In this document: in pieces, positions 3,010 to 24,057 of the stretch | How the letters are laid out: every line of letters begins with the position of its first letter | Position numbering within the stretch: position 1 is the first letter of the stretch | IMG/VR virus record: IMGVR_UViG_3300033143_002094 | Location: 1-24,163 of that record | Source of the DNA: a virus | Strand: one strand, 5' to 3' | DNA: 24,163 nt | Notes under the pieces: model-generated | What the model was told of the DNA's origin: nothing | Seen by the model: only the letters and a program-made list of their open reading frames with translations | Databases searched by the model: none | Made by a program: the position numbers and the translations under genes

Positions 3010-4961
3010 TAATAACTCGCATCAATGACAGTACCGGTACGATTACCATAACCATCACCAGTTGTAGCAATACGTGGTTTGGACCCATTAAGTGCCTGGT
3101 AGATTGGATTATTGGTATCAAGCCCAGAAGCATTGCCAGCCATGGCAGCACCCTGCACTCGCATAATTTCTTCTGCAGTAAAGCCAGCCTCTATTAAATG
3201 ACTCCAGGTTAATTTAGCACTAGTCTCATCTACTGTTACGCCAGCAGTTGGTACTGAATCTACAAATTTACAATCACCACGGGCTACCATTGAATTAGCC
3301 ACTGTTGTGGTATTAGATGCATCAAATGTCAGAGAGCCTTCAGATACTTCAACAGTCACTGTACTAGATGCATGATCACACCCTTTAATAGTTATTCCAC
3401 CACCATTCTTTCTCATTATTAATGAGAAGCCAGTAGTACTAGTCATATTGATAGTTGGTCGTGCAAGACCTGCTTTAGCAGATACACAATAGGACATTAG
3501 AGCCGAACCGCCATCAACACCAAATAGATCTCCATCAAGTTTGCATTGATCAAAGTTACCATTGAGATAAAAATTATCTTTTAATCGACAACGATCTGCA
3601 GAGATTACACCAGTATACGTACCATCCATTTGACAGGTTTCAAATACTGAACCAGCTAAATCTTGGCTATTACAGTCTATGGTTGGGTGTCCAATGCCTT
3701 TAAATATAAAGTTTTTAAGTTGTCGATCTAAAATTACATCTCCTGTAACTATTACAGTACGTACGCCATTAGCCTCTCCCCAATCAATAGCAGCAGTCAA
3801 AGTATTAAATGGAGTTTTTTGAGTACCATCTCCTACAGGAATCAATGTTTCATCTAACCAAACAGTTCTTTCTAAATTTTCATAACTTAAAACTGGTACT
3901 GTATTATCATATACTGATGAACCATTAGACATATTGCTAACGTGTCCACCTCCACGAAGAATAATTAGACCATCTGTATTTCCTGCTTGTAAAATACAAT
4001 ACGAACTTATGAGATCAACGCATACAGTAGAAGTAGCTGCAGTAGTCCCTGTTATTTCAAACGGTCCAAGGTACCCTCTTAATGCTAAACTATCTTGTCC
4101 ATTAACATCAATTACAGGACGTAAAGATCCTTCTGCTCTAATAGTAAATGGGTCAACTAAAGTAGTAACACCCCCTAATACATATGGTCCAGCTCCAGCA
4201 AATCCAGTATTTGCTCCTTGTCCTTCAATTCCAGTTACACCATCTGGATGAAAGTCACAATAACTATAAGACATACCTGTACCACTAAGAGCCCCTTTAA
4301 TACATAATTTTACAAAGGAAGTATCATTAGTTATACACCCTGCTACAAACTCAAGTAATGTTACATTAGAACTATCTCCTGAAATAATATAACCACTGAC
4401 ATCTTGAGTTATATTTAATAAATCCCCTTCAATATGTAAATGTTCTAATCCTTCTCTGGCTGCAATTATTAAAGCATCATCCAGGTTATTAACAGGAAAT
4501 TGTAAGTTACCTATATTCCCAGATGTACCAGAGTACATACTTGTAGTATCAACAGTTACTTGTCCGTTATAAGATGCAAAATCTAATGTATCTTTAATTG
4601 TCCCAATACCTTGAGTAATAGGTTGGATGCCTTGGACTAGAACTGTGAAATCCCCTGTAGTTGGAATTAATACAGGTAGTGTAGAATCTTCAGGAGCTAA
4701 GTTACCAGTGAGAAGAATAGTTGCATCTTCTTCAGCTGGTTTAATACGCCAGCCTAATTGATTCTGAATAAAGAAATAAGCACCAGCATCTACACCTGGT
4801 GTTAGTGAGTCACCACCTGTAGTACGAAATGCTTGTGGGTAACGCATATTGCCAGCAAGCATCCAAGTTTTCCATTCACCATAGAGATCAGCTTCAGCAT
4901 CCAAAGTTGGTGTAACTGCATCTAAAGTAATAACTAGTGCTTCCCCATCAAATGTAGGCAT
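3009..4961 (-). CDS. Beta-helix tail-fibre/spike-type virion protein, 650 aa
   Basis: The N-terminus (MPTFDGEALVITLD, then DLYGEWKTWML and YFFIQNQLGWRIKP) is of a type I recognise in phage tail-tip proteins placed beside polymerase or fibre genes. After about residue 135 the protein consists of short Gly/Asn/Thr-rich strands typical of a right-handed parallel beta-helix. Two pectate-lyase-like entry units are visible, at residues about 135-190 (SGTSGNIGNLQFPVNNLDDA) and about 370-408 (GDGTQKTPFNTLTAAIDWGE), each followed by a strand ending in GDL or GDV. This suggests an internal duplication. No catalytic residues can be assigned, so depolymerase activity is unproven. The C-terminus ends in a short helical piece (EIMRVQGAAMAGNASGLD), which may be a trimer tip. 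The start overlaps the 523-aa stop (TAATG). The likely role is receptor binding at the tail tip. Confidence 0.7.
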   Translation of the reverse strand: MPTFDGEALVITLDAVTPTLDAEADLYGEWKTWMLAGNMRYPQAFRTTGGDSLTPGVDAGAYFFIQNQLGWRIKPAEEDATILLTGNLAPEDSTLPVLIPTTGDFTVLVQGIQPITQGIGTIKDTLDFASYNGQVTVDTTSMYSGTSGNIGNLQFPVNNLDDALIIAAREGLEHLHIEGDLLNITQDVSGYIISGDSSNVTLLEFVAGCITNDTSFVKLCIKGALSGTGMSYSYCDFHPDGVTGIEGQGANTGFAGAGPYVLGGVTTLVDPFTIRAEGSLRPVIDVNGQDSLALRGYLGPFEITGTTAATSTVCVDLISSYCILQAGNTDGLIILRGGGHVSNMSNGSSVYDNTVPVLSYENLERTVWLDETLIPVGDGTQKTPFNTLTAAIDWGEANGVRTVIVTGDVILDRQLKNFIFKGIGHPTIDCNSQDLAGSVFETCQMDGTYTGVISADRCRLKDNFYLNGNFDQCKLDGDLFGVDGGSALMSYCVSAKAGLARPTINMTSTTGFSLIMRKNGGGITIKGCDHASSTVTVEVSEGSLTFDASNTTTVANSMVARGDCKFVDSVPTAGVTVDETSAKLTWSHLIEAGFTAEEIMRVQGAAMAGNASGLDTNNPIYQALNGSKPRIATTGDGYGNRTGTVIDASY

Positions 4962-6532
4962 TAGGTTACATTCCGATTGATTAACTGGTTAATATTAATT
5001 GTAGTATTTGTCGCTGGTACAACATAACCATTCACACGAATTGTTTTATAAAATGGTGCAGTACCGCTGAAGTGATGAATAACATAATCAACTACTGTTG
5101 ATGCAGGCGATGCCCAAGTAAAGCTTCTATCATCTGTGGTTCCTGCGGTAACATCTTCGATACCATCTATCTCTGTGTTCGTTCCAGTTTCATAAACCCT
5201 AACTTCCGTATCATCTTTCATTTGATTAAAGGTAACACTGACATCGGCTGAAACTGTAACAGTACAACCAGCTGTTCTAACATGGCTATCGGCGGTTATA
5301 CCTGAACCCCCAGAAATATTAATTGTCATTGAACCAGTAGCAATATTTACGTAGATACCTTTATCAGCATCAACCGTTGTTGAGTAACCACTAAAATCTA
5401 AACCACTTAATGTAATGTTTGCAGCTGTTCCAGTAATCTCTAAACCATTACCTGTACCTGCTGAAGTAAACACACAGTTAGATAATAATGCAGCATTAGC
5501 AGGACTTGAAGTTGTTACATCTACAACGCCTATCCCTGAATCAAATACCGCACCAACTATAGTAGCGCCATTAGTAGTAATTAAATCTGCACCAATCCAT
5601 CGTCCACCAACAATATCTGTTCCTGAACCTAATATTGTTGCGCCAAAATTAATAAAACCTACGTTAGTTAAATTTACATCAGCTGCAGATGTAAGTACTT
5701 CAAACCTACCTGGGTTATTTGTACCTAAAGCTAGAAAATTAACATTAGTGAGTGTTACAATACTTGATGAGTTTTCAATAAGAAACTCTGTAAAATCTGT
5801 TTGTGAGTGTCGCGTATCAACTATATTAATGTTGATATTAGAATCTAAAAACTCACATTCAGTAGCACCACTACCAATTCTTAATTTACCTTGCCAGCTA
5901 TAACCACCGTCAATGGTTATAAATACTCCTTCAGACGCAACAGCATCATCAGCTGCTATGCCTGCAAAATCAGCTTCTGGATCAGCACCAGTACCAAGTA
6001 AAATGTCATAACCAGTACCAATACGTGAAGCATCAATAGCCGTATTATCAAATCGAGCTGTAGCAGTTATATTAGATCCAACACCAATCCATGATGGTGT
6101 AGTCCCTGGTGTCCCTACTAATGTTCTGAAATTGGATAATGTAGTGTTATCAAACCGAACTGCGTAAGGTTGGATACCTCCATTAGGTAAAGTATCACTT
6201 CCTTGTAAATGGAATTTAACAAAGTTACTAGTATCATCACCGATACACATGACCAATCCACGATTATCTCGTGTATCCATTAAACCGGGGATTGAACAAA
6301 GACACCAAGAAAAGAAATGATCGTCGGCTCCAATAGTAAAATTACTTACAGCATCATATAGGAACCCACGTTCAGAACCTGATGTAGGTTTGGCTACACA
6401 GTTAGTCCCTTCAACTGCATAATCTGGCCCAGCACTGGCAGCAGAGCCACCGCCACCAAAGCTGGTGACGGAGCCTACACTTTCCCACATATAGATATCT
6501 GATAGATCAGACGTATAAGTTGCAGCAACCAT
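4961..6532 (-). CDS. Beta-helix virion protein, 523 aa, probable tail-tip component
   Basis: The protein starts with about 60 residues containing a Gly-rich loop (VTSFGGGGSAASAG). A lectin-like or jelly-roll-like region follows to about residue 210. Residues about 215-430 are repetitive short beta strands with Asn, Thr and Ser turns (NININIV, TLTNVNFLAL, NITLSGLDFSGYS), as in parallel beta-helices. A final Ig-like stretch (about 435-500) ends in INRNVT. The last four residues, RNVT, are the same as those of the preceding 815-aa protein. The ribosome-binding site TTAGGA overlaps the stop of the 815-aa gene, and the stop overlaps the next start as TAATG, so the three large proteins are co-translated. 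I infer a fibre or spike component working with its two neighbours. No enzymatic motif was recognised. Confidence 0.68.
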   Translation of the reverse strand: MVAATYTSDLSDIYMWESVGSVTSFGGGGSAASAGPDYAVEGTNCVAKPTSGSERGFLYDAVSNFTIGADDHFFSWCLCSIPGLMDTRDNRGLVMCIGDDTSNFVKFHLQGSDTLPNGGIQPYAVRFDNTTLSNFRTLVGTPGTTPSWIGVGSNITATARFDNTAIDASRIGTGYDILLGTGADPEADFAGIAADDAVASEGVFITIDGGYSWQGKLRIGSGATECEFLDSNININIVDTRHSQTDFTEFLIENSSSIVTLTNVNFLALGTNNPGRFEVLTSAADVNLTNVGFINFGATILGSGTDIVGGRWIGADLITTNGATIVGAVFDSGIGVVDVTTSSPANAALLSNCVFTSAGTGNGLEITGTAANITLSGLDFSGYSTTVDADKGIYVNIATGSMTINISGGSGITADSHVRTAGCTVTVSADVSVTFNQMKDDTEVRVYETGTNTEIDGIEDVTAGTTDDRSFTWASPASTVVDYVIHHFSGTAPFYKTIRVNGYVVPATNTTININQLINRNVT

Positions 6533-6541
6533 TGCTTAGTC

Positions 6542-8989
6542 CTAAGTCACATTACGTTCAGTTGCAGCAAACAACGGAATAGTAACCGGTGTTCCTGATG
6601 CAATTGATGACACAGGAGATGGAATGTACTGAGCTTCTATCTGTCCAATTGCTTTAGCAACAACGAATGTTTCTGTAGACACTGTTCGTCCACCTTGTAC
6701 ATTATCGTCATATGCAAAGTTAAAGACCTTATCAGCATCAAAATCACCAGAGAATAACTTGGTAATTTTAACAGTTGGACCAGTACCTTGAGTTGTAATT
6801 GTTGCAGGGAATATACGCTCTGGTGATACAGTTAATGTAGTAGCACTTTGAGTTAAGATCTCCCAGTAACCATCATTTAAGCCACCTGTTGAATCTTCAA
6901 TCTGGATACGATCACCAACTGCAAATACCGTAAACTCAGATCCAGCTGAAGTAATGGTATCAGCTGAAGTAAACGAAACATCAGCAGAAGTTGCCACATT
7001 GATATTGGTATGTACCAATAATGCATCAGGAGTATCAACACAATGTTGATCAAGATCAACTGCTGCTGCAGTTACCGCAACTATTGTCGTATTATCATAA
7101 CGAACTACTGTCCAATCAGACCCAGCACCATTTATAACTGTGATTTGATAGACTCCGTTCATTGCTGCATCACCACCAGTTAACCCACTAACTCGTACAT
7201 ACGCACCAGCAACAATACTAGCGTTAGAAGGTAACTCAGTTGTAGCAGAAGTAAATTGACCACCACCTGCTACACCAATAACCAAATCATCTAAGTTAAC
7301 AGCAAGAGTTCTAATGGTACGATCAAAGTAAAGATCATATTCAGAAGCAACATCACCAGTAATAATACTATTACCATCAAGAGTAATGGCAATTGATTCT
7401 GGTTTACTTCTTATTACACCAGTATTGTCATAAAACTTGGTTGCATTATCCGATGCAGCATTCAGGTTATCAATAAATAACCCAGCACCACCACCTTCAG
7501 GATTATCAGGGAAGTTAACACCACCATCTGGTGAACCAAATTCACCTGTATCACCATTAAATCGTGCCATTAATTTCAAAGCTCGGCCAACATTGACACC
7601 TGCACCATCATCAATATCAGTTAACAAACGCAATTGACGTTGTAACCATTCAAACACTTCGATGTTTGTACCATTGTTGCCATCAATTATCATACCGAAG
7701 TTGTATGGACCACCTACCAGGCCACCACGAGACTGACCGGATCCATATAATGTTAATCCCATACCCAAAAATGGTGCATTGCCATCTATGTAGGCATCTG
7801 TGTTGGTAATCTTCAAATCTGTTGCATTAGCAAGCGGGAAAGAGAACACGAAGTTACCAAGAGCAGTTTTACCAGCACCAGCTAAGTTAGATTCACCGTA
7901 GGTCTTACCATTGGTATCACCATCTCGTACACGAATACCAAGACGGAAGGCATTATCATTATTAACTGCGATAGTAGTTGTACCAATTGCTTCTACTGTC
8001 CAGGTAGTACTAATAGTTATACTCGTAGCTGAAACAATTGTTATTAGATAAGTACCATCATTGGAAGTTGAGTTAGTAATAGTAATCTGTCCACCAACAA
8101 CGAATCCATCAGCAACAAAGTCACCCGTTGAGCGAGTAAAGGTCGATGTTGTTGCGAATGCTGGGGTGTCACCAGCCAGGTCACCAATCAGATCAAAGAA
8201 CTTAATAGCTTCATTGGCTGGGCCAGTAAAATCAAAGTCAAACGTATCATCGATGATAGTGTTAGTACCGAACTGACCAAATGGTAAATCACCAGTAAGT
8301 GGAGTCTCATCTTCAAACCCACCCAAAGTAACTGCACAGAAGTAACGTGCTGTTTGATCACCAGATACATTGATTTCATCCCAACCCATATTACGCATTA
8401 ATTTACGTGTACGGATAATTGGAGTCTCGCCAGGTAGATCAACGAATGTCCACCCGTTTGAGTTACCAGATGAATCCTGACCCATGATGTATTTACCAGC
8501 ATCTTTATCGATTGCATTCATAGGGAATGGAGAGTTAGCGACAACATAATTATCATCTTTGTATTCCTGCATGAAGAAGGAATACACCGCATCACCATTA
8601 ACACCAAAAGCATCCATGTTACCTTGTTCTATTAAGTAACAATCAAGAGTTGCCAGATCCAAGTGAACTGATTTCTCTGAAGAAGCACCAGTCGCACCAA
8701 GAGTAGTTACAGTGGCTGCACCAGCAACTACAGGTGTACCAGATGAGATCTTATTTACTTCATAATCATCTGTTGATGTATTAACAGTGACTACTTGATA
8801 GAGCCCGTTATTAACGGAATCTACAGCATCTCGTATTTCAAAATATTCAGCAGCTGCTAATGCAGGCAAGTTATTTGATACACTTGTGTGTACGCGGATA
8901 TCAGCACCTGTACCAGTTGCAAAAATGCAAGCAGCAACAGACAGTTTATTCCCTTGGTTTAATCCAGTTCTACTTGTAATCAATGGCAT
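6542..8989 (-). CDS. Large modular tail-tip/fibre-type virion protein, 815 aa
   Basis: The protein begins MPLITSRTGLNQGNKLSVAA and contains, after about residue 110, VYSFFMQEYKDDNYVVANSP with PFPMNAID, then a region ending in GKTYGESNLAG (about 365). This arrangement matches a family of large structural proteins I recognise in podovirus-like phages. At least four small beta modules with the signature NDGxY or NNGxY are spread through it, at residues about 45-85, 285-335, 590-640 and 685-735. Each has a Val/Thr-rich strand on both sides, suggesting Ig-like or knob modules on a shaft. The C-terminus reads TERNVT. It follows a 67-nt gap, one of the longest non-coding gaps here, and has a good ribosome-binding site (GAGGAAA, 9001-8995). 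It opens the fibre cassette. No signal or membrane segment was seen. Function is inferred from composition and position. Confidence 0.72.
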   Translation of the reverse strand: MPLITSRTGLNQGNKLSVAACIFATGTGADIRVHTSVSNNLPALAAAEYFEIRDAVDSVNNGLYQVVTVNTSTDDYEVNKISSGTPVVAGAATVTTLGATGASSEKSVHLDLATLDCYLIEQGNMDAFGVNGDAVYSFFMQEYKDDNYVVANSPFPMNAIDKDAGKYIMGQDSSGNSNGWTFVDLPGETPIIRTRKLMRNMGWDEINVSGDQTARYFCAVTLGGFEDETPLTGDLPFGQFGTNTIIDDTFDFDFTGPANEAIKFFDLIGDLAGDTPAFATTSTFTRSTGDFVADGFVVGGQITITNSTSNDGTYLITIVSATSITISTTWTVEAIGTTTIAVNNDNAFRLGIRVRDGDTNGKTYGESNLAGAGKTALGNFVFSFPLANATDLKITNTDAYIDGNAPFLGMGLTLYGSGQSRGGLVGGPYNFGMIIDGNNGTNIEVFEWLQRQLRLLTDIDDGAGVNVGRALKLMARFNGDTGEFGSPDGGVNFPDNPEGGGAGLFIDNLNAASDNATKFYDNTGVIRSKPESIAITLDGNSIITGDVASEYDLYFDRTIRTLAVNLDDLVIGVAGGGQFTSATTELPSNASIVAGAYVRVSGLTGGDAAMNGVYQITVINGAGSDWTVVRYDNTTIVAVTAAAVDLDQHCVDTPDALLVHTNINVATSADVSFTSADTITSAGSEFTVFAVGDRIQIEDSTGGLNDGYWEILTQSATTLTVSPERIFPATITTQGTGPTVKITKLFSGDFDADKVFNFAYDDNVQGGRTVSTETFVVAKAIGQIEAQYIPSPVSSIASGTPVTIPLFAATERNVT

Positions 8990-9056
8990 TGTAATTTCCT
9001 CGTTGTATTATAGGTTGCCAGTTAGTGGAATAAATTCATTACTGAGCATATGTTAA

Positions 9057-9455
9057 TTAGTTTGTTCGTATTAATTCTATATCTGTCATTAAATCATCTT
9101 TACCACGATTAATCTTCAATTTAATAACTGGGTCAACCTCTACTGCATCTTTAATTTCATTTAATATCTCTCTATTTTTACCTGTACCTTCTTTTATGAC
9201 TGTAAGTATTTTTTCTGCTGTTCTATTAGCCGCCTCTGCTGCTCGCTGCGCGGCAGCAACGGCTAGCCTCATCTGAGGTGAGGAGTTTTCTGTATTAATT
9301 TGATCTAATGGGCTCTTCTTCTTTTTAGCTACTAAAGACGGGGCTGCCTTCGACTCAATCACAGGAGCCGGTTTAGCTTTCTTTTTAATTACTGCTCCAG
9401 AGGCAATACGCTTATCTATGTCTGCCTGAGAAACAACCTTTCTTTTCTTAGCCAC
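9057..9455 (-). CDS. Small basic, helical protein (132 aa), probable virion-associated
   Basis: I place the start at GTG 9455, not GTG 9464, because AAGGAG at 9469-9464 forms a ribosome-binding site 8 nt upstream of 9455 and the 9464 codon would lie inside it. The stop of the preceding gene and this start overlap as TAGTG. The protein is MAKKRKVVSQADIDKR onward. Its N-terminal ~50 residues are Lys/Ala/Pro-rich with KKKAKP and KKKK runs. Residues about 55-100 form an amphipathic Ala-rich helix (MRLAVAAAQRAAEAANRTAE), and a charged tail follows. It may bind DNA or an acidic protein in the head, but no family was recognised. It sits between the large internal-type protein and the fibre cassette. 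Confidence 0.7.
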   Translation of the reverse strand: MAKKRKVVSQADIDKRIASGAVIKKKAKPAPVIESKAAPSLVAKKKKSPLDQINTENSSPQMRLAVAAAQRAAEAANRTAEKILTVIKEGTGKNREILNEIKDAVEVDPVIKLKINRGKDDLMTDIELIRTN

Positions 9456-12247
9456 TATGCACACTCCTTAAATACAAAAGCAAGTGCATTGATTTTACGA
9501 TCTATACGCTTAAGATCTTTACTAATGAGAGTACTTTCTTCAAATATGTCCCCTTTCTCATTTTCAAATTCTTCTATAGTAGACACCTGTTTATTATCTA
9601 AATCAATGATAAGTTCTTTATACTCAGAGGTGAGAATATTCACATGCCCGGGAGCTTCTGTTTTTTGAGTAACTGGTTCAGCTGCTAAAGTAGGATCAGC
9701 AGGTTCTTGTCGAGCATTGGATTCATCCACTTCATCTTGAGCTCGTTCCTGTTTATCAAACTTCTCATCAGCAGCAATCTCTTCCTTAGTCTGAACCACT
9801 TTAGGTTGTTTTGTTTCTTCTTTTTCAACTATAGGTTCAGGTTTAATATCTACTGCTTCAACGCTGAAACGTTTAACACCTTCTTTCTTAGTTATATTGA
9901 TAGCATTATTAAGTAACTCAATCTCTTTTTTAATAAACGTAGCTACAGTTTTAGAATGAGGAACATAATTAGTAAATACTTTATTACCTTCATCATCATA
10001 TAATTGTTTCTGGGTCTTAGGTAAATATCCATTACTTAACTTATCTCTCTGAGTCTGTCTAAATGCTTGTAACTTCTCAATAGTATTTATAGCTACTTCA
10101 CGTTGCCCTAATGCAATTGCCTTTTGGAAGTTTGCAATATGTTGTTTAATACCAATGAACCCTGAACGTTTACTACCAGTAATAACATCACGGTTAACAG
10201 CAGCTGTACCTTTATGAGTCTCTACTGAATCTTCTATGGCTTCAGTAGATTCTAATAACTCAACATAATCTTCAACAGTATCTCGTTGTTCTTTAGTAGC
10301 TACTCCAGTCTCAGGATCAAACGGTGCACTACCTAGTACTTGCTTAAGAGTCTTTAAAGGAACATCAGTTGTAGTAGCAACACTTTCAACAATTGTTTCT
10401 ACAGCTACTGTCTTATCCTCAGTAGTGGCTGTATCTACTTTTTTAGTATCAGTTACAGTTTGTACTGCTTGAAGGATAGAACCCCCGGCTTCAATTCGGT
10501 TATGTGCCTGGGCTAACTGATTTAACTGTGCACGATATTGAGCATTCTCTTCTTTAGCCTTTTTAGTTTTAGCTGTTTTCTCATGCTGAGTAATAAGAGT
10601 ATCCACTCTTTTTAAATTACTAACACGATCTTCTCGTACAGTTTCTTTAAAATTAGTAGATACAGCTTCAAGTGCTAATTTAGGATCTTTATCTTTCTCT
10701 GCCTGAGCCAATATAACTTTGGCCTCACCAATACCTTCCTGACGGAAGCGTTCACCTAATTGTTCATTTAACTCTTGTGCTTGTTTTTGTAACCCAGCAG
10801 GGATTTTTGCAATACCTTCACCAGTAACAATTGCAGTTGAGATATGGGCACCAGAGATACCACCAATAGTTGTATCAACAAGTGCTTCAGCGATGTCTAC
10901 TTTTGATAGATCCTGTTTAGCAGCTAATTGAGTTAGAATATTTTGTATTCCTTCAGTACCACCTTCAATTGGGACTGATCGTACTGGACGAGATGTTACA
11001 ACCTTCTTAGTAATACCTAATGATTTCTTCAAAAGAGATTTACTTGCTTCTTGTGCAGCTAATTCAGCAGCCTCTACAGTTGCTTTAGCTGTTTTAATTC
11101 CAACTTCTTTAGATAAACCAAGAACTGATTTAATTAAGTCCTTGCCTCCTAATACAGCTTTAGCACCAACTGCATCTAGTCCTGCAGCCCCAAGTGCAAG
11201 AATACCAGCAATAGCTTTTTCTTGTTGATTAGGTTGACGATCATGTTCTTTTACAAATTCACGTACAGCTTCATCATATCCAGCTGCAGTTAGTGTACTT
11301 ACACCTAATAATGCATTCTTTGCTAAGACATACATTTGTGGAAGAGACTGTGCAGTTAACTCAAGTGTAGCTGCAGGGTGTTCTGAAGCCATATCTGAAA
11401 AACCATTAAGGAATGTACCTATACTTCCAAATAATTTATCTCCACCAAACTCTTCAACAGCTTTAATAGAATTTGCTTTTAATTGAGCTAATGCTTCTTC
11501 TGTCTTTTTATTATTTGCTAATGCATGCGCAGAATCTATAGAAGATGAAATTTTATTAATAAATTGGTTACGAGCCCCTACTTCTTCTATAGATGAAAAT
11601 TTACTAACTCTAGTTGTAACTTCTTTTCCAAATTCATTCGTTTTAGTAGTTGGTTTTTCAAATGCCATTTCTTCTGGAGTAAGTGTTTCTCCTGATTGAC
11701 GTTTGCTTAGAATAGATCGATATATCGTATAATCTTTTTCATTTAAATCTGCAGTAGCTAATGCATTTACAAAAGAAGATCCAGCAGTAAATGTCTCTCC
11801 AAATACTTGGGCAATACTTGCTCCTGCTTTTACAACAGTATTAGCTGCTCCTCCTACAAAAGTATCTGCTTGTTGATCTGTAAGAAATGACCTCTTTTCA
11901 CGTTGAATTCTTTGCTGATTTGCTTGTTGTTCTTCTTGTCGTAATGTTAAGACATGTTGTTTATTTTCATTTGATAAGAATGCATATGGAATACCATCAA
12001 GTGATAAACCTTTTGTATTATTCCCTAATAACTGTTGTTTCTTTAAAACTGAAGAATTAAGTTTATTCTTTTTATCTTGTACAACTCCATATGGTGTATT
12101 AGACAATAATGCTTCTTTTGCTTCAGTAACAGTTAACTGAGCAGTAGGAGGAGCTAATAACATTTGTTTTGCTTCTTCTGGAGACAGCTGGACTCCTCCT
12201 TCAATAGAAGAATTGCTAAGTGGGGCCAAAATGTTATGTTCAGTCAT
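9455..12247 (-). CDS. Large internal/ejection-type virion protein, 930 aa
   Basis: This is a long, mostly helical protein with charged coiled-coil stretches (about 100-120, 240-265, 485-600) and three Ala/Gly-rich moderately hydrophobic regions (about 131-166, 305-325 and 345-376). These could insert into a membrane during DNA ejection. The sequence EGGTEGIQNILTQL (about 428-441) followed by a glycine-rich hydrophobic stretch (about 457-485) resembles segments of large internal virion proteins of podoviruses. Residues after about 780 are Lys/Glu-rich and probably disordered. It begins directly after the stop of the 474-aa gene (TAAATG) and ends overlapping the next start. I infer that it is packaged in the head or tail and injected with the DNA, like T7 gp15/gp16 or the extra domains of N4 gp50. 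No lysozyme motif was found. Confidence 0.65.
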   Translation of the reverse strand: MTEHNILAPLSNSSIEGGVQLSPEEAKQMLLAPPTAQLTVTEAKEALLSNTPYGVVQDKKNKLNSSVLKKQQLLGNNTKGLSLDGIPYAFLSNENKQHVLTLRQEEQQANQQRIQREKRSFLTDQQADTFVGGAANTVVKAGASIAQVFGETFTAGSSFVNALATADLNEKDYTIYRSILSKRQSGETLTPEEMAFEKPTTKTNEFGKEVTTRVSKFSSIEEVGARNQFINKISSSIDSAHALANNKKTEEALAQLKANSIKAVEEFGGDKLFGSIGTFLNGFSDMASEHPAATLELTAQSLPQMYVLAKNALLGVSTLTAAGYDEAVREFVKEHDRQPNQQEKAIAGILALGAAGLDAVGAKAVLGGKDLIKSVLGLSKEVGIKTAKATVEAAELAAQEASKSLLKKSLGITKKVVTSRPVRSVPIEGGTEGIQNILTQLAAKQDLSKVDIAEALVDTTIGGISGAHISTAIVTGEGIAKIPAGLQKQAQELNEQLGERFRQEGIGEAKVILAQAEKDKDPKLALEAVSTNFKETVREDRVSNLKRVDTLITQHEKTAKTKKAKEENAQYRAQLNQLAQAHNRIEAGGSILQAVQTVTDTKKVDTATTEDKTVAVETIVESVATTTDVPLKTLKQVLGSAPFDPETGVATKEQRDTVEDYVELLESTEAIEDSVETHKGTAAVNRDVITGSKRSGFIGIKQHIANFQKAIALGQREVAINTIEKLQAFRQTQRDKLSNGYLPKTQKQLYDDEGNKVFTNYVPHSKTVATFIKKEIELLNNAINITKKEGVKRFSVEAVDIKPEPIVEKEETKQPKVVQTKEEIAADEKFDKQERAQDEVDESNARQEPADPTLAAEPVTQKTEAPGHVNILTSEYKELIIDLDNKQVSTIEEFENEKGDIFEESTLISKDLKRIDRKINALAFVFKECA
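9464..9469 (-). promoter_or_regulatory. Ribosome-binding site deciding the start of the 132-aa basic protein
   Basis: The minus strand reads AAGGAG, 8 nt upstream of GTG 9455. The in-frame GTG at 9464 shares its first G with this site and is therefore not the start. The preceding stop TAG (9457-9455) overlaps the true start. Confidence 0.65.
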
Positions 12248-14196: not shown

Positions 14197-16914
14197 CTAC
14201 TCATAGTTAGAAACAGGGTCAAATGAGTTAGGGGTTAATCTTGGTAATTGTAGTAAATTATCATGAAAAGTCTCAACCTGGAGTAAGGTTAAAACCCCAG
14301 GATTGGCGGTATGTATAGTTCTCTCGTAATAGCCATCTGGTTTTTCATATGAATCAATCGGGAAATATGTGACTAATTCCCACCATTCTAATTCTGAAGT
14401 GTTATCTAATAGATCCTGGGCTTTTTCAAGTTCTTCCTGTCGTTCTTCAGCACTAATAGTAAATGCATCAATTTCTTGTTGAAGATTGTTTGCTTGAATA
14501 CTGATATCAGTAAGTAGTGCTTGTGTAACAGCATTAACACCAAACAATAAAGACTCTGCTGTACTCATACCTGAAAAATCCGCCGCGTAATATGTTGCAG
14601 CAACAAACGTTAGTATAGCTAGTGCTCTAATTGCTTCATCATCAGCATAGCTGTCCAAGATTTCTAATAAAATCAATTGCAGAGCATATGACCATAGTAT
14701 AGCTTCAGCTAATGCTAGTAATGCAGCAGTTCCTCCTGATTCACCCCAAGTAATTACTAAATAAATCACTGCTATTACAATAATTACAAAACTAACTAAA
14801 TTTAAAAAATCTTCTGTTTCATAAAATTCTAAATGTTGATAGGTAGAAGCATAAACAATCATATGAATAGATTCATATATTATTTTAGTTGATTCATCGC
14901 TTGTCATACTTTTAAGAATATTTGTAGAGACAGGGATAATAAAATTTGCTTTCTGAGTATCATCTGTTGATAACTCAGTTAATGTAGTATTCACTCTTCC
15001 TGCTGTAGTAAAAATATTTGTTAATTGAAATACACCATGAACTTTTAATTCAATATAGTTATTAATTGAATTTTGATAACGTAATAAGATATAACTATTG
15101 ATTTTACCTTCTTGTGTTACATTGCCTTCATCATCTTCTGTATACGGAGTATTAGGTAAAACTACTATTTCTGTTTCATATGAATATAGTTCCCCAATAG
15201 AACCAAGGTTACTTGTTAGTGTAATATAATTAAAAATTATTGCAGTATTATAAGAAGTTTCTTCCATTGAGAAAGTATTAAAGATTGGTGCAGCTCCGGA
15301 AGGATTTGCATCATAGTCTGCTTTACTAACTGTAGCATTAAAATATAAATTAGCCCAAAAATTAAATAATAATTTTTGTCCATGTGTAGTATCGGTATAC
15401 AAATTTATAGCAAATAAAACAAAAGCATCTCTAATTGAAGCAATATCATCATTATCTTCTAACTGTTCAATTAAGTGATCAATATCAAAATTAATTGTAT
15501 CTAATAAACCTTTACTAGATAAGTAAGCTTCTACATTTGAAGAAGGACTATTGACACTAATAAAATCCTTTCTTAAAGGAATAACAGGAAGTACTGCAGC
15601 ATCCCAATATTGCCCTTGCTCTGCTTCATTATCTAAAGTTGGATACGTACCTAAACTTTCTTTATATAACCAAAATTTGGTATAAGATGGGTCAGAATCT
15701 AATGTGTAAAACACATTATAGTGCGTCTCGTAACTTACAATAGGTACTAAATACCCTAATGTTGTAGTTTCATTCCTACTTATAGAATAATTGTCTCCAA
15801 CATCCCAGTCATCATCTGTACCACCTGTTAATGTAGCAGTAATAGTTGTAGCAGTATTTGCTGTAACAGTACCAAAACTTCCATCAGTATCATTATTAAG
15901 TGTTTCTCCTACCCATTCATTAGTTGCCCATGACTGAGTAGTATCCTCAAGAATAGCTACATCATCATCATCACGAACTAATGAGTAAGTATCAGAAGTA
16001 TCCCAATCATCTTCAGTTCCACCAGTAAGAGTTGCTACAATAGTTGTAGCAGTATTTGAAATAATAGTAGCTGAACTACCATCAGTGTTATTTGTAACTA
16101 CACCTCCAGCCCATTCATTTACTGTCCAGGCTTGAGTTGAATCAGTTAAGACAGCAACATCATTTGCACCATCATGTGAACCACTATCGGTTATCGTTCC
16201 ATTATGTGTGTTGTTTCCAACAATATCTCGTTGAAGATTTACTGTAAACTCACCACTAACTTCTTTTACAAAACCATCATATATCCAGGCAATAGGATCA
16301 GGTGCTTTAAATAGTTCAGAAGTATCTTCGGTGTATGATTCATTTTCTTGAAGATAGTATTTAACCCAAAGTAAATCCGTAGGAAAACTTAAATCAGAAG
16401 AGGTTATAGTGATAGCTTCTCCTGCAACTGAAGTTACTACTGTATCAAGAGCATCTAAATCTATTTTACGAAACCCACCTTTAATAGTAGGAAACTCGTA
16501 ATAATATTTGTCTTTTGCATAGTTTATTAAATGGTTAATATTACCTAGTGGACCACTAAGTAATGCTACTTGAACATTATTAACAATATCTTGTTCATTT
16601 TTAATAGCAGCCATTACTGCTTCTGCAAGATGATTTGTTGGTTCTTCAGTAACTAAAGGAATAGTTACAAGTTGAATTGTATAAATATCTTCATCTTCAT
16701 AACCTAATACAGAGAAAGCAGCCTCTACAATAGGATATCCAACATCTTGCCAAACAGTTACTAGTATTTCTTTACCCAAACCTAGAATTGCATCTACACC
16801 GCCAACAATACCATTCCAGCTATCACTAGCAGCATTTGAAATATCCCCTAATGGATCCCAACCACCGTTACCACAGTTTGTTCCCCCTGAAGATACACAA
16901 CTAAATAAGCCCAT
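14197..16914 (-). CDS. Large virion-type protein with tandem beta repeats and C-terminal hydrophobic segments, 905 aa
   Basis: No named family was recognised. Residues 1-90 include Cys/Gly-rich and hydrophobic stretches (GIVGGVDAILGLGKEILVTV). Residues about 252-314 and 317-378 are two tandem copies of a beta domain with the signature DxTQxW..NEW.G...NxTDGS and L.GGT.DDWD. A third copy lies in the adjacent 335-aa protein. Near the C-terminus are strong hydrophobic segments at about 703-720 (LVSFVIIVIAVIYLVITW), 725-752 and 762-778, followed by a coiled coil at about 803-840 (ISAEERQEELEKAQDLL). Membrane-type segments in a late phage protein suggest a role in crossing the host membrane during DNA entry, or in tail assembly. 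The ribosome-binding site is weak (AGG, 10 nt from ATG). The gene follows the 335-aa gene by 12 nt. Confidence 0.65.
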   Translation of the reverse strand: MGLFSCVSSGGTNCGNGGWDPLGDISNAASDSWNGIVGGVDAILGLGKEILVTVWQDVGYPIVEAAFSVLGYEDEDIYTIQLVTIPLVTEEPTNHLAEAVMAAIKNEQDIVNNVQVALLSGPLGNINHLINYAKDKYYYEFPTIKGGFRKIDLDALDTVVTSVAGEAITITSSDLSFPTDLLWVKYYLQENESYTEDTSELFKAPDPIAWIYDGFVKEVSGEFTVNLQRDIVGNNTHNGTITDSGSHDGANDVAVLTDSTQAWTVNEWAGGVVTNNTDGSSATIISNTATTIVATLTGGTEDDWDTSDTYSLVRDDDDVAILEDTTQSWATNEWVGETLNNDTDGSFGTVTANTATTITATLTGGTDDDWDVGDNYSISRNETTTLGYLVPIVSYETHYNVFYTLDSDPSYTKFWLYKESLGTYPTLDNEAEQGQYWDAAVLPVIPLRKDFISVNSPSSNVEAYLSSKGLLDTINFDIDHLIEQLEDNDDIASIRDAFVLFAINLYTDTTHGQKLLFNFWANLYFNATVSKADYDANPSGAAPIFNTFSMEETSYNTAIIFNYITLTSNLGSIGELYSYETEIVVLPNTPYTEDDEGNVTQEGKINSYILLRYQNSINNYIELKVHGVFQLTNIFTTAGRVNTTLTELSTDDTQKANFIIPVSTNILKSMTSDESTKIIYESIHMIVYASTYQHLEFYETEDFLNLVSFVIIVIAVIYLVITWGESGGTAALLALAEAILWSYALQLILLEILDSYADDEAIRALAILTFVAATYYAADFSGMSTAESLLFGVNAVTQALLTDISIQANNLQQEIDAFTISAEERQEELEKAQDLLDNTSELEWWELVTYFPIDSYEKPDGYYERTIHTANPGVLTLLQVETFHDNLLQLPRLTPNSFDPVSNYE
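15780..15966 (-). repeat. Tandem beta repeat, copy 2 in the 905-aa protein
   Basis: This encodes residues about 317-378, beginning DVAILEDTTQSWATNEWVG and ending DDWDVGDNYSIS. It aligns along its full length with the copy immediately upstream (16164-15973) and with one copy in the 335-aa gene. The copies have diverged at DNA level while keeping the TDGS, SNTAT/ANTAT, L.GGT and DWD motifs. Confidence 0.85.
15973..16164 (-). repeat. Tandem beta repeat, copy 1 in the 905-aa protein
   Basis: This encodes residues about 252-314, starting DVAVLTDSTQAWTVNEWAG and ending DDWDTSDTYSLVR. It is the closest partner of the copy at 15966-15780 and shares the motif set with the copy at 17325-17127. Confidence 0.85.
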
Positions 16915-16926
16915 AAAGGTTGCCTA

Positions 16927-17934
16927 TTATGTACAAGTTACTACAACATTTGTAATATCTGAACCATCGCTGTCTATAGTACCAGTACCACCACTAGTAA
17001 TCACACAGGTTAATGCAGGAGGATTAGTTAAGACAGTTACTTCATAATAGGTATCAGGATTTATTGCTGTTGGGAAAGTAAACAGCCCATCATTAGAAAT
17101 AGGTAAATTATCTGCAGGAGCTCCTACAATCAGATACGCATCAGAACTGTCCCAATCATTATCAGTACCTCCAGTTAAAGAAGCTACTGTAATTGTATCA
17201 GCAGTATTACTTATAATTACACCTTCACTTCCATCTGTTATATTTCTAATGGTATAACCATTCCATTCATCAATAGTCCAGGTTGATCCAGTATCCTGCA
17301 TAATAGTGCTATGAGTAGCAACATCATGTTGTCCAGTTACTCCTCCGCCAGTCGCTTTTTGTAGAATTAATCCAGGAGAAGTTGCACCACTAACTGTTCC
17401 TCCAATTGAAGCACGCACACCCAAAGTAACACCAATACCTGCAGCAATAGTATCAATGAATTCATCTATATCTAGATCAGTTGCTTTAGAGGGAGTCTCT
17501 GTTAAAGAATCAGTTGAACGACGGATATTCCAACTATCCATCATAATTTTTAATGCTTTTTGTTCAGCATCCCGCTGAAAACCATCTGTTTGTTGTTGTA
17601 ATAAACCTTTTTGTTTACCCACCATACCAGCAACAGCCCCGGGATTAGTTCCCATAGTTGTAGTATCAAGTATTTGAGCTTCTTCAGTAGCAAGTTTTTG
17701 ATCAAGAAGTTCTGCTTGCTTTTGTGCTTGTTGTTCTCCTAATACAAACTGGACAGCCTGGGCCATGGCTGATTGCATGGCACCCAGGTATACAGTGGAA
17801 TAATCACTACCCTTAATTCGATTCTTATTGTATTCAACATCAATATGAGCAGTAATAACTGACATCAATTTATCAAATACTCCAGCACCTCCAACAGTAC
17901 CATCTGTTACATCTGTAATTTGAATATCAGTCAT
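16927..17934 (-). CDS. Virion-type protein with helical core and C-terminal beta domain, 335 aa
   Basis: After MTDIQITDVTDGTVGGAGVF the protein has a helical region, residues about 25-160, with YSTVYLGAMQSAMAQAVQFV and EQQAQKQAELLDQKLATEE. This type of sequence is found in structural proteins encoded shortly after the capsid gene in N4-like and other podovirus-like phages. I infer a position equivalent to N4 gp54, a structural protein. Residues about 204-269 are one copy of the beta repeat also found twice in the 905-aa neighbour, and the last ~60 residues form another beta-rich domain. The ribosome-binding site AAGGAA is 5 nt from ATG 17934. It lies 16 nt after the 188-aa gene. It may be a head-tail connector or appendage component; the homology claim was not tested. 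Confidence 0.66.
   Translation of the reverse strand: MTDIQITDVTDGTVGGAGVFDKLMSVITAHIDVEYNKNRIKGSDYSTVYLGAMQSAMAQAVQFVLGEQQAQKQAELLDQKLATEEAQILDTTTMGTNPGAVAGMVGKQKGLLQQQTDGFQRDAEQKALKIMMDSWNIRRSTDSLTETPSKATDLDIDEFIDTIAAGIGVTLGVRASIGGTVSGATSPGLILQKATGGGVTGQHDVATHSTIMQDTGSTWTIDEWNGYTIRNITDGSEGVIISNTADTITVASLTGGTDNDWDSSDAYLIVGAPADNLPISNDGLFTFPTAINPDTYYEVTVLTNPPALTCVITSGGTGTIDSDGSDITNVVVTCT
17127..17325 (-). repeat. Beta repeat copy shared with the 905-aa protein
   Basis: Residues about 204-269 of the 335-aa protein, with WTIDEWNGYTIRNITDGSEG, ISNTADTITVASLTGGT and DNDWDSSDAY, match the two tandem copies in the next gene motif by motif. Confidence 0.85.
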
Positions 17935-18600: not shown

Positions 18601-20151
18601 TTACCATTTAGCAACAGTCCATGCTACAGCCAAACGTTCTGGACGCAGAATCATAGAACCGTAGTACCATTTGATACTAAAGAACCCAATTTCACCGTAA
18701 GGATCATTGTAGCTATCAGCAGTATCAACACCAGGTTTCTTGTGAGTAATTTTAAATTTCACAGTCTTACCATCGGTTTGGAAACCAATTGTAGTAAATG
18801 AGCCAGAACCAACAACCAGCATTGGGAAAACGTCATAACTACCACCAGATTCACGGTAACCAGTATTAGTGGATACAGTTGCACCAGCACCTGCTTCATG
18901 CATCATTTCAGGAACAACAATGATACGGAATTGGTCGATAGAACCAATTTCACCGACTGCAACATTAGCGCCTGAAGCGTACTGTTGAACAGGGATGAAT
19001 ACCTGGTTATTAAAAGTATCCTGCATCTCTTTTAACAGAGGGATCAATTCAGACCCAACATATATATAACGAGCTGCATCAATAGTTTTAGTATCAACCA
19101 TACGAGTACCAGAAATGATCTTCGTATTTTTAGGACAACGGTTATTGTCCAGGTCGATAGACATACGCATCAAATCACCATAAGTGATTTCAGTAGCAGT
19201 AGCTTCACCAGAAAGCGTGGCTTTAGATGTAGCAGCACCACCGTAACGAACAACACCGGCACCATTCAGCAAATCGATCTGCAGAGCATCTTCAGTGATT
19301 TCATTAGCAGCCATGATTGTTTCACGATGAATATGCATTTCCAGTTCAGCATCTGAATCAAAATCCAGAGATTCCTGGGTGTACTCATCAAAGAAACCAA
19401 ACTTCTCGATAGAACCTTCTACTTCGATTCGTTTGTAACCAACACGGTTAACACGACCACCTGTCTCAGACAGGGCAGGAAGTTTAGCAGTGATAGTACC
19501 AACGTCTTTACTGGAACCATACAAGTTACCAGCTTCCATAACTGCAAGGGCATCACCCAGAGCAATTACATTAGTATCATCAGTACCAGAAGTAATGGTT
19601 ACGAACTGAGGAGTACGGAATCCCAAGTCATATACCAAACCATCAGTGGTATTAACTGCATCAGCGAACTTAAGATCTTCAGTTGCGCCAACAAGTGTCA
19701 AACCAAGACCACCAGCATTAGTGTTTTCTTCTGCCCAGGCATTAAATGCCAGGATAGCAGCATCAGCAGCAAGAGCTGCAGTTGCATAATCAACACTTTG
19801 ATCCCCAGTAATGTAACGTGAGTTACCTACTGCATAACCGTAGAATGGTGAGCCTTCTGGAATCGAACCATCAACAGTAGTAACTTCAATAGCTACTTTC
19901 TGATTAACAATCGCACCGCCTGCATCGATACCTTGATCATTGATATTGGCATCATCCAACAGTGGGATGTAATGGTAACGCTTGATTTTCTTACCCATGT
20001 TTTTAGGCATGGCAGTAACATCAGCCATCTGAGAGAAGTACTGCTCTTTCTTCGCCTCAATTAGCGCCTTTTTCTGAAAATAATCGATACGAATCTGCGT
20101 ACCGATACTGGAGTCACTACCACCAGCTGGGTCATTATAAATATTAGTCAT
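18601..20151 (-). CDS. Major capsid protein, N4 gp56 type
   Basis: The 516-aa protein forms the phage head shell. Its start region ([20 protein letters not shown], then [20 protein letters not shown]) and the later [18 protein letters not shown] and [22 protein letters not shown] are hallmarks of the N4 gp56-like capsid family (HK97 fold). The protein is longer than N4 gp56 (about 400 aa). Residues about 95-165, an Ala-rich helix flanked by Gly/Thr loops ([20 protein letters not shown]), could be an inserted surface domain. The ribosome-binding site AGAAAGG precedes ATG 20151. Upstream is the scaffold-like gene, downstream the terminator at 18590-18555, so it should be the most abundant product. 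Codons here use C in the third position more often than neighbouring genes, consistent with high expression; this was judged by eye. Confidence 0.93.
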
Positions 20152-21855: not shown

Positions 21856-24057
21856 TTAAACTGTTGTTATATCAGGTAATTCAACACCACCTTGCGCAGT
21901 TTGTCCAGTACCTTCTTTATCTTCAGCTAAAAGAGCCTCTGCAGTCTTCATATCGAGCTGAGTTGCACGGTCATGATCTTTTTCATCAAGTTTCCGTTCA
22001 TGGTCAGCTCCAGACTCTTTATCAAGGAAATCCAGGTCCTGGCTATCTGACTTACTGTGTAAGTTGCGTGCTTTAGCTTCTTCAGTCTGAGCCTTAGCTC
22101 TCTTAAGACGAATGTCCATGGCATTCTCTTCGGCCTTAGCAGTTTCATTAGCAACCTGTGCACCAAGTAATTCAACTTCAAGTTCTGCCTTCTTCTGAGC
22201 CAATGGATCAGGTTGAGGTTCAAATTCTTCAATACGTTTAGCCAGGGTAGGCATATTCCGTAATCGAGCAATATCTGTAAGAATTATCTTCGACATACCA
22301 AAATCCATGTTATTACCCATGGTTTGCAACATAAATGCTAGTTCCTGAGCCTTCTGATTATCCGACTCAGCAGTACTAATTGTTAGGGTAATATCAAAAT
22401 TACCAGCCAGATCATCACGGCGAACCTCTACAAACTCATCATTTGTGATCCGAATGACTTCTACATCACTCAGGAACTCAGCGTTCATACTAATGATCTT
22501 ACGACCAATATCCTTAAAACCTTGAGCTAACCGTCTCAGGATCCCTAATTCCCGCTTTGACACGGCATCCAGGGCACTACGTACCTCTGTGGCTGTATCA
22601 CCCAGAGCTTGCCCACCGATGCCATTTACAAAGGCACGCACGCCTGAGAGACTCTCAGCCTCAGAATTCTGAAGATTTAGCATGTATTCAGCACTTCTAG
22701 GGATCTCAGGATAGGTGTGCATAAAAATAGCTTGTTTTGGGTCAACCTGGGAGTTGAACTCATAATCCAGGCCATTATCAAATTTCCGCTTATTAGTGAC
22801 ATCTAATGCATCTTTACGGGTACCGACCTGGCCATTAGCACTTCGACCCATGATATCGATCATGCCCCGGGTTACGGCGCCTACAATACGTTGGTTGTCT
22901 TCCAGGAGAGCTCCATCAGGTTCACCGTAGATTGAACCACGAATTGGGAGATATTGAGCCGTAACAAAAGGAATTTCTTGATCTGGGAATGGGTTCTCTT
23001 CCATCCGGATCAGGACCCCACCTACCCAGGTAGCAACAATAGGTTTTACAACCCCAGATTTATTAATATCCCAGTATCCCCAATATTCATATGCTACAAA
23101 TTTCTTACGGGGTTTATCTTTAAAATTGAATGAGGATTCATCCCGGGACTCATGATCAGGTTCATTTAATATCGAAGTGCCCTCGACATTTATTTTATCT
23201 AAGTTATGATATTTACCATCCTTTTCTAATTCAGATAAGGAGGTTTCAAAACTGTAAATAGCAAACCTTGCTTTTTTAAGATCACCTTGACAGCTAGGAT
23301 CAATAATTAAATTATTATAATCACAAACTTCAACTGTTGGATGATTTTTAAGTACGGTAACTTCTTCTTCTAATGAGTAACCATCAATAATTTGTTCTAA
23401 TGCAGCACCTGCATCCATTGATGCTCTATGTAGTTCTTGTTCAGCTTCAGAGAGTTTATCAAACACAGAAGGATCATAAGTCATCGCTTGATGTAACTGT
23501 TGGAACTGCTGTTGTATTGCAGGATCTTGAGATACTTGATAAATGTAATTAGGAACTTCTACTTCATTAGTTTCATCTTCGTATTCCCACCCCACACGAA
23601 CACAAACAGTGCCTTCATCCACAGCTGTACGAATGTAATCATCAATGAATTTTACTTTTTGAATTTTAGTATTAAATTGATTATTAAGAACTAACCCATT
23701 TTGAATAGCAGCGTCTTTATCTTCAAAGGTAACTGGGTCTGTATTATAAATATCATCTGTACTTAAGAAAGGTTCACTTAATGCTGCATAACGCCATTCA
23801 GCCTGTTTACGAATTAATTTAGGAACAATATTGGATCTGCCTGTTCTTTTCTTAATAACCGCATTGCCTTCAATCTTTAAATTATCTAACCATGTTTTAA
23901 CTTCAGTAGTATGAGCTTTATGTGCACTATTAGCATCTTCTAGATCTTGCTTAAGATCTAAAATAGTTGGTTCATTATCCCAATCAGTTAACCCCTTATC
24001 ATCATCTGGTGTCAGAATATGATTAGGGGTATTTTCAACGTCATATGAGGCAGCCAT
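21856..24057 (-). CDS. Portal protein
   Basis: This 733-aa protein is the likely dodecameric portal at the head vertex through which DNA enters and leaves. Residues about 80-165 hold KLIRKQAEWRYAALSEPFLS, TDDIYNTDPVTFEDKDAA and IDDYIRTAVDEGTVCVRVGW, a pattern typical of P22-like and N4-like portals. The stem region includes SGVRAFVNGIGGQALGDTAT and RSALDAVSKRELGILRRLAQ. A long C-terminal charged helix (about 625-720, AQKKAELEVELLGAQVANET onward) is the barrel typical of podoviral portals. The ribosome-binding site TAGGAA overlaps the stop of the upstream partial gene, 7-8 nt before ATG 24057. It comes first in the set of head genes. N4 gp59 is similar in size (763 aa), and the order relative to the capsid gene is the same. 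Confidence 0.88.
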   Translation of the reverse strand: MAASYDVENTPNHILTPDDDKGLTDWDNEPTILDLKQDLEDANSAHKAHTTEVKTWLDNLKIEGNAVIKKRTGRSNIVPKLIRKQAEWRYAALSEPFLSTDDIYNTDPVTFEDKDAAIQNGLVLNNQFNTKIQKVKFIDDYIRTAVDEGTVCVRVGWEYEDETNEVEVPNYIYQVSQDPAIQQQFQQLHQAMTYDPSVFDKLSEAEQELHRASMDAGAALEQIIDGYSLEEEVTVLKNHPTVEVCDYNNLIIDPSCQGDLKKARFAIYSFETSLSELEKDGKYHNLDKINVEGTSILNEPDHESRDESSFNFKDKPRKKFVAYEYWGYWDINKSGVVKPIVATWVGGVLIRMEENPFPDQEIPFVTAQYLPIRGSIYGEPDGALLEDNQRIVGAVTRGMIDIMGRSANGQVGTRKDALDVTNKRKFDNGLDYEFNSQVDPKQAIFMHTYPEIPRSAEYMLNLQNSEAESLSGVRAFVNGIGGQALGDTATEVRSALDAVSKRELGILRRLAQGFKDIGRKIISMNAEFLSDVEVIRITNDEFVEVRRDDLAGNFDITLTISTAESDNQKAQELAFMLQTMGNNMDFGMSKIILTDIARLRNMPTLAKRIEEFEPQPDPLAQKKAELEVELLGAQVANETAKAEENAMDIRLKRAKAQTEEAKARNLHSKSDSQDLDFLDKESGADHERKLDEKDHDRATQLDMKTAEALLAEDKEGTGQTAQGGVELPDITTV

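Follow-up and report, generated by a model that had tools for sequence, protein, structure and literature searches.

Promiscuous domains of phage tails are known mainly as immunoglobulin-like (Ig-like) folds. Among the virion domains of this kind are Big_1, Big_2, I-set and FN3 (Fraser et al. 2006, cited through PMC9022992), and in the passages of PMC9022992 devoted to them they are accessory parts of the tail tube, fibre, baseplate and other virion proteins, placed terminally or, as in YSD1, internally; for those on tail tubes a role in adhesion has been speculated. Exchange of domains is a general source of mosaicism in phage proteins, notably in receptor-binding proteins, as set out in the relevant parts of Smug et al. 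2023 (PMC10684548). The closest described tail assemblies are those of N4 and DEV, where, according to the sections on the tail in PMC12633501 and PMC12892993, a plug (gp53/gp74) caps a tube of 12 subunits (gp54/gp75) to give a 12:1 assembly.

The window, by which we mean the whole stretch of 24,163 nucleotides analysed here, is, judged from its sequence, a fragment of an N4-like phage. The features that matter for the argument are as follows:

14197..16914, minus strand: tail plug protein of the N4 gp53 type, 905 aa, bearing the tandem pair of domains (PHROG and PDB matches)
15781..15972 (aligned range 15778-15975), minus strand: plug copy 2 of the domain, directly after plug copy 1 (pairwise alignments, own-record search)
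15979..16185 (aligned range 15976-16170), minus strand: plug copy 1, SGSHDGANDVAVLTDS...DTYSL (pairwise alignments, own-record search, edges over many copies)
16927..17934, minus strand: tail tube protein of the N4 gp54 type, 335 aa (phrog_2050, E 1.6e-57, and PDB matches)
16930..17421, minus strand: C-terminal extension of the tube, interrupted by the tube copy (alignment with an uninterrupted homologue in contig L100 and with contig L001)
17128..17337 (aligned range 17125-17334), minus strand: tube copy, TGQHDVATHS...DAYLI, in a loop of the C-terminal extension (alignments, own-record search)
18601..20151, minus strand: major head protein, context (phrog_1357, E 9e-134)
21856..24057, minus strand: portal protein, context (PF23899, E 1e-149; phrog_1216, E 2e-247)

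The 335-aa protein matches the solved tail tubes of Schitoviridae (9d83_C, 9bgm_a, 9d80_C and 9lc0_K, E 2e-27 to 5e-23), the match to 9lc0_K, which is N4 Gp54, having E 5e-23. Residues 77-893 of the 905-aa protein match phrog_2220 (E 1.3e-90) and residues 413-895 match PDB chain 9ze4_M, deposited as 'N4 gp53-like protein' (E 2.2e-8), and its gene lies directly after that of the tube, as expected of a gp53-type plug. Tube and plug of N4 and DEV share both family matches and gene order with the window proteins. The initial annotation had suggested from the shared repeat that the two proteins touch. Contact is very likely, because the proteins are homologues of the solved Schitoviridae tubes and of a gp53-like chain, and in N4 and DEV the plug caps the tube; the repeat itself is no evidence for it.

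The window differs from the described tails in what these proteins carry. Three isolate tubes that were aligned have neither the C-terminal extension nor the domain, whereas the window tube has both, and three aligned isolate plugs hold nothing comparable to the insert of the window plug, in a half of the protein where the alignment is weak. The extension of the tube is Ig-like in appearance; one match to it was obtained in a pattern search, with none in isolate phages up to E 0.1 and none in Pfam.

Alignment and a search of the record bear out the original observation that a repeat occurs once in the 335-aa protein and twice in tandem in the 905-aa protein. In local alignments the three copies share 38/62, 37/70 and 33/59 identical columns with gaps counted (53-61%), and their pairwise scores of 225, 185 and 172 far exceed the maxima of 81, 82 and 62 reached in 1000 shuffles each; beyond these three places, copy 1 matches nothing in its own 24-kb record up to E 1. 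Judged by the edges seen in many copies, the tube copy probably begins at 17337 and plug copy 1 at 16185; plug copy 2 has no GTHDG-like start.

Compared across loci, the repeat is a free-standing domain of about 69 aa with fairly sharp edges, [T/S]GTH[D/T]G at the start and YxI at the end. Among viral copies the last residue has an information content of 2.76 bits and the position just beyond it 0.28, and a histidine near the start is shared by 72 of the 102 viral and 18 of the 20 cellular copies. The domain is mostly internal, 81 of the 102 viral copies being flanked on both sides by 60 or more residues of frame, and the residues of an NxTDGS loop are conserved across host proteins. In two loci, L031 and L112, the domain is itself interrupted by another stretch.

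AlphaFold confidently predicts that the domain folds as a small beta-barrel, with block means of 83-95 over model residues 31-100 for the tube copy. Among the folds listed by the aligner, single-domain and tandem models align best to barrels, with Z up to 7.9 (3.0 Å over 77 residues) for the best alignment and Z 5.8 for the best with the tandem model; the aligned ranges of the latter span both copies, so that these are no clean test of a single copy. Barrels of similar size and arrangement (Z 5.3-7.9) are the N-terminal barrel of F1/V1-ATPase subunits and those of phage tailspikes and baseplate or tail-tip proteins, the structures matched by arrangement including 24qj, 4hiz, 8rk3_O, 8vjh_D and 6tba_7A. 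By sequence, a profile search up to E 10 matched the domain to none of the PDB chains, and the Z scores, all below 8, are middling, in the range of a common arrangement, which may be all that is shared. Foldseek gave no PDB match with E <=0.001 and two matches among viral models, both without names.

The domain matches no family in Pfam, PHROGs or NCBIfam, the best E values being 0.02-0.3 and short of the cut-off wherever a family has one; the queries were nine copies and the consensus, taken up to E 10, and the consensus together with seven host proteins, taken up to E 1. In particular, the nine copies and consensus matched none of Big_1, Big_2, I-set and FN3 in Pfam up to E 10. The consensus at E 1 had no match in 50,697 isolate phage records and the tandem pair at E 0.01 had none in phages, and we are therefore aware of no virion under study in which the domain occurs; plasmid searches likewise gave nothing. 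In a sensitivity control, run with the low-complexity filter on and at the same database size, 94 of the 117 viral pattern loci were recovered by the consensus at E 1 and 63 of the 117 by the tandem pair at E 0.01, values that overstate the sensitivity because the consensus was derived from those same loci. Motif strings of the domain had no full-text match in the literature, and no title or abstract among the papers listed was about it.

Across loci the domain is widespread. In 140 of the 154 loci examined, the window included, there are 181 domains in 155 open frames, some loci being pieces of one contig (L001 and L085; L002 and L010; L003 and L040; L045, L046 and L119; L016 and L116); 164 of the domains are near-complete and 122 of those lie in representatives of 94 source clusters. 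At least two copies are present in 20 of the 119 viral loci with the domain. Most loci were fetched with the pattern GGT[D/E][N/D]DWD, so that copies without it are missed and the conservation of GGT..DWD is partly by construction. Contigs L154 and L100 end inside a copy, and in L102, L105, L090 and L052 copies lie, by eye, at or near the contig end; the idea that assemblies tend to break at the domain is given no weight here.

The host frames fall into 59 flank families, 53 of them with a viral member, under single linkage at E 1e-5 over at least 60 columns, a count that short or cut frames may inflate. The 53 viral representatives match 17 Pfam families, with one to three members apiece; these include nozzle, SU10 adaptor, baseplate hub, T7 tail fibre, tip protein J, pectate lyase and laminin G, and 19 of the 25 PHROGs listed (of 56) for viral host proteins are tail-related. 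Hosts that match a known family are mostly phage tail proteins, and the domain is common to several functional classes of virion proteins; it is also inserted in cellular proteins. The initial annotation had read the repeat as duplicated and spread within one assembly module, and had held that this would be less likely if it were a common free-standing domain in many unrelated phage proteins. The 59 flank families are just such a distribution, and local spread is not supported.

Relatives of the window proteins differ in where the domain sits. The window tube has one copy, in a C-terminal loop; the tube of L001 has two, the first close to the N-terminus and the second in a different C-terminal stretch; and in L100 a complete tube has none while a cut plug has two. 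These different sites in the same tail protein argue for a mobile plug-in decoration and not for local duplication. In a family unrelated to tube and plug (that of L011), a single site holds the domain in 24 loci and lacks it in 17, counts that include near-identical contigs. A tree of 30 of its 42 frames (two fragments and short and identical frames left out) requires at fewest 3 changes, with a bootstrap range of 2-3, of which strongly supported branches force only one. Between L165 and L168, DNA identity is 0.88-1.00 in flanking blocks and 0.58-0.85 in the four blocks over the domain, which could be a swap of the domain or, in this one host pair, fast divergence. From the substitution ratios, the copies are under purifying selection: in 25 pairs, which are not independent, dN/dS is 0.03-0.39 in inserts, with a median of 0.14 against 0.16 in flanks, and exceeds the flank value in 12.

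We think it probable, on balance, that the barrel of about 69 residues is an accessory module that phages gain, keep and exchange as a self-contained unit inside unrelated, often virion, proteins. It would spread by ordinary recombination and selection and not as a mobile DNA element that brings ends of its own, the same general process of exchange as the mosaicism of Smug et al. 2023, although the barrel goes unmentioned in the relevant text of PMC10684548. In this phage, one copy interrupts the C-terminal extension of the tube and two stand in tandem in the plug, and from the 12 tubes and one plug of N4 and DEV about 14 barrels may be displayed along the tail and tip of each virion. More tentatively, they might act as accessory adhesion modules that keep the tail close to the host surface or to polymers around it, a role like the one speculated for the promiscuous Ig-like domains of other tail tubes. 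A bolder extension, which we regard as possible but doubtful, is a general adhesion cassette of uncultivated tailed phages that could be dropped into almost any exposed loop, swapped between phages at its own edges and stacked inside other plug-in domains; if so, a single phage could bear this one module on its tube, plug and fibres alike.

Alternatively, a copy passed from tube to plug, or back, within the module could give the two proteins matching surfaces through which they dock. The genes are adjacent, the proteins of N4 and DEV touch (PMC12633501 and PMC12892993, in the parts on the tail), the two copies of the L001 tube are mutual best matches among eight copies, and for 7 of 47 copies the nearest neighbour comes from the copy's own source, where 2000 shuffles gave 0.7 on average and at most 8. 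Against this stand the breadth of flank families and the nearest neighbours of the window copies, which among the 122 representatives lie in other contigs (L089, score 231; L148, 226; L041, 212), with a small margin for the plug copies because these score about 222-225 together; such comparisons span 64 residues and have little resolution either way. The L100 plug with two copies beside a tube with none further means that a tube-plug docking pair is not required. Local duplication is rejected as the main origin on account of the flank families and the neighbours in other contigs, and we consider the docking scheme as a whole unlikely. A doubling within the plug itself is plausible but would be an old one: window plug copy 2 shares 61% identity with plug copy 2 of L100 and 59% with plug copy 1.

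A mobile DNA element inserting in frame, with the domain as its body, would fit the many unrelated insertion sites and the loci with several copies. Two codons at the edges occur more often than expected (GGA at the first G, 28 times against 18.4; CTA at a later L, 17 against 8.9) but the other eight positions tested are nearer expectation, and flanking direct repeats are slightly long, at 4.33 against 4.15 (sd 0.09), yet below 4.45, the highest mean in 100 flank shuffles. The GC3 values of inserts and their hosts are correlated (0.95), no transposon signature of conserved DNA ends and target-site duplication was found, and such an element, unsupported by codon choice, GC3 or repeats, is very improbable. 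The domain could also be a passive spacer or stabiliser that binds no ligand, its sturdy fold and tolerant ends serving to lengthen or stiffen loops. This reading has a modest chance of being the better account, and insertion in very different proteins, cellular ones included, and within another domain in the window tube fits it. The conserved NxTDGS residues and the low dN/dS count against a spacer, although constraint on the fold alone could give both, and GGT..DWD weighs little here, being partly chosen by the search pattern.

As an accessory module, the barrel resembles the Ig-like virion domains described in PMC9022992 in its occurrence across tail and other virion proteins, but matches none of their families, is predicted to be a small barrel of about 69 residues, is mostly internal, and has an N4-type tube and plug among its hosts. 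It looks like a second, unrelated family of promiscuous tail domains, so far undescribed. For annotation the gain is a domain unnamed in the three libraries searched and unmatched among the isolate phage records, and related phages whose tubes carry or lack it offer natural comparisons in which the role of such decorations becomes testable.

The barrel domain, a beta repeat of about 69 residues, is both widespread and free-standing. A degenerate 24-base pattern covering the GGT..DWD stretch, used for the locus search, had 117 matches in viral contigs and 33 in genome contigs, and a profile seeded with the three copies of the window and then iterated detected the domain in 115 of the former and 21 of the latter. 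With the window and the contig loci L001 to L003 included, the totals are 181 domains in 155 frames from 140 of 154 loci, some loci being parts of a single contig. When the domain is masked these frames group into 59 flank families, of which 53 have a viral member, and this free-standing presence in many unrelated proteins counts against the local duplication proposed in the initial annotation. Seventeen Pfam families, with one to three members each, are matched in the 53 viral representatives and include nozzle, SU10 adaptor, baseplate hub attachment, T7 tail fibre and tip protein J, as well as pectate lyase, beta helix and laminin G; many hosts in this search have no Pfam match. Tail-related PHROGs make up 19 of the 25 matches listed (of 56), and the two cellular hosts tested have beta-helix or laminin-G domains. 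We regard an accessory module as the best explanation, with confidence somewhat better than even, lowered slightly because the search pattern contributes part of the domain's conservation.

Promiscuous virion domains are a known kind of thing. The barrel-domain family appears undescribed in the sources searched: Pfam, PHROGs and NCBIfam have no model for it, isolate phage and plasmid records gave no match (tandem pair at E 0.01, consensus at E 1), and no paper was found for the motif strings.

The main genes of the window, a virus contig of 24,163 bases, lie on the minus strand and are as follows.

Minus strand: portal (PF23899, phrog_1216)
Minus strand: two proteins, listed between the portal and the major head protein (phrog_2346, phrog_2120)
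Minus strand: major head protein (phrog_1357)
Minus strand: phrog_2130 protein, listed between the major head protein and the 335-aa protein
Minus strand: 335-aa protein and then 905-aa protein, listed after the phrog_2130 protein

Three annotated Vibrio phages share this order of head protein, small protein, tube and plug. Four solved Schitoviridae tail tubes match the 335-aa protein (E 2e-27 to 5e-23), and a chain deposited as 'N4 gp53-like protein' matches the 905-aa protein (E 2e-8). In published accounts, the N4 tail tube is gp54 and the plug corking it gp53 (PMC12633501), and the tube of DEV consists of twelve gp75 with a gp74 cap at a 12:1 interface (PMC10925440, PMC12892993).

Elsewhere in the window, the virion RNA polymerase (1-2743, minus strand) appears interrupted, with frame 542-2743 matching positions 905-1400 of phrog_2206, which has 3406 positions, and frame 1-555, open at the window end, matching positions 1442-1626. 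These minus-strand frames overlap by 14 bases, and the interruption may be an assembly frameshift or a genuine split. Between them and a 474-aa frame are six further frames (88, 650, 523, 815, 135 and 930 aa; 2743-12247, minus strand), several of them adjoining at their start and stop codons. The sole PHROG match among the six at E 0.01 or better is that of 6542-8989 to a head protein (phrog_1236, 1.9e-9), and we know of nothing of comparable size in this place in N4.

The shared repeat of tube and plug is borne out, its three copies being 53-61% identical and scoring 172-225, where 3 x 1000 shuffles reach 82 at most; a search of the record up to E 1 gives no further copy. The window copies have their nearest neighbours, out of 122 representatives, in other contigs, by small margins for the plug copies. 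In multi-copy sources, the nearest neighbour comes from the same source for 7 of 47 copies (mean 0.7, maximum 8 in 2000 shuffles), five of them within one protein, so some local copying occurs, mostly inside a single protein. Docking of tube and plug through the repeat is weakened by contig locus L100, where the plug carries the domain and the tube does not. Proteins with three to four copies, some closely spaced, are found in L094 (3-1847), L059 (5809-9666) and L035 (3675-6323), all on the minus strand.

Both tube and plug homologues are present in L100 and in L001, which shares one contig with L085. The C-terminal extension of the L100 tube is uninterrupted; in the alignment, that of the window tube breaks off behind LILQKATGGG and picks up again with ADNLPIS. 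The L001 tube is intact at this place; one copy lies further on in the extension, and a second sits near the N-terminus, flanked by DINITDVT and FDKLM. In the window and L100, about ten residues separate these two stretches. Neither extension nor barrel is found in the three isolate tubes aligned. The plug insert occupies one place in the window (two copies), L100 (two, in a fragment) and L001 (one), with nothing comparable there in three isolate plugs, whose alignment is weak in that half. L154 shares 99% identity with the window over a stretch of 185 residues, its contig ending within the tube copy. The extension itself (window 16930-17421, minus strand; L100 8140-8409; L001 2764-3258) matches neither Pfam nor isolate phages and may be a second accessory domain; its sequence gives the impression of an Ig-like fold. 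Tube and plug are separated by about 460 bases in L100 (about 8410-8870) and by 12 in the window, and the L100 gap may contain a further gene.

Presence and absence were also compared among 41 loci fetched by the N-terminal 141 residues of the L011 host, a stretch ending before the domain. With near-identical contigs included, 24 loci have the domain at one site and 17 do not, and the flanks align closely across the site; in L172 the domain is in a separate frame directly downstream. On a tree of 30 flanks the presence/absence label requires three changes (bootstrap 2-3), of which strongly supported branches force just one. Between L165 and L168 the domain (dS 0.62, dN 0.24) is more diverged than its flanks (dS 0.21, dN 0.03), the shift coinciding with the domain edges within 20-codon blocks; the simplest reading would be a swapped cassette, a single case in which L164 is a near copy of L165. 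For L022 and L051, and for L093 and L063, similarity is higher in a longer tract that takes in the domain than in the remainder, showing recombination though not of the domain specifically, and differences in L119/L039 and L020/L095 are weak and patchy. In 25 related-host pairs, non-independent and many with high dS, insert dN/dS is 0.03-0.39 (median 0.14; flank median 0.16) and exceeds that of the flank in 12. In L031 and L112 about 75 residues of a different sequence interrupt the barrel domain itself (host-frame residues about 97-240), indicating nested insertions there too.

Two of the three seed copies start at or after GAN, the profile start. Even so, among 102 viral copies G (in 78), H (in 72) and D or T (in 76) are frequent directly upstream, and conservation stops at YxI. 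A strict expression for the start fits 75 of 122 copies, so that a GTHDG-like start is common, not universal; plug copy 2 of the window lacks it. Past the edges, flanks are unrelated from family to family. No clear DNA-level insertion signature was found in edge codons, GC3 or flanking direct repeats. The strongest codon departures at ten edge positions are the first G (GGA 28 versus 18.4 expected) and a later L (CTA 17 versus 8.9), the remainder being nearer host-frame use; GC3 values of insert and host have a correlation of 0.95, and direct repeats average 4.33 bases versus 4.15 (sd 0.09; highest mean 4.45) in 100 shuffles.

AlphaFold models of the C-terminal part of the tube (68 rows) give block means of 83-95 for the barrel (residues 31-100) and 37-66 for the rest, with strands that include the VTGQHD stretch and YLIV. 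In the tandem region the model places five strands in copy 1 and four in copy 2, their positions roughly matching. Block means are 74-87 for most of the first core and 81-92 for most of the second, and the remainder has low confidence. Structural alignment matches the barrel model to phage tailspike, tail-tip and baseplate proteins and F1/V1-ATPase barrels (Z up to 7.9), and the tandem model to F1/V1-ATPase barrels (Z up to 5.8); such values can reflect a common arrangement alone.

By homology, twelve tube copies and two plug copies would place about 14 barrels on each tail. We liken their role to that of the Ig-like domains on the tubes of other phages, which are described in PMC9022992 as outward-projecting and non-essential, sometimes raising infection efficiency, and are speculated there to aid adsorption. 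The main rival is that the barrels are spacers without a ligand; by analogy with the Ig-like domains, they would most likely serve as an aid to adsorption.
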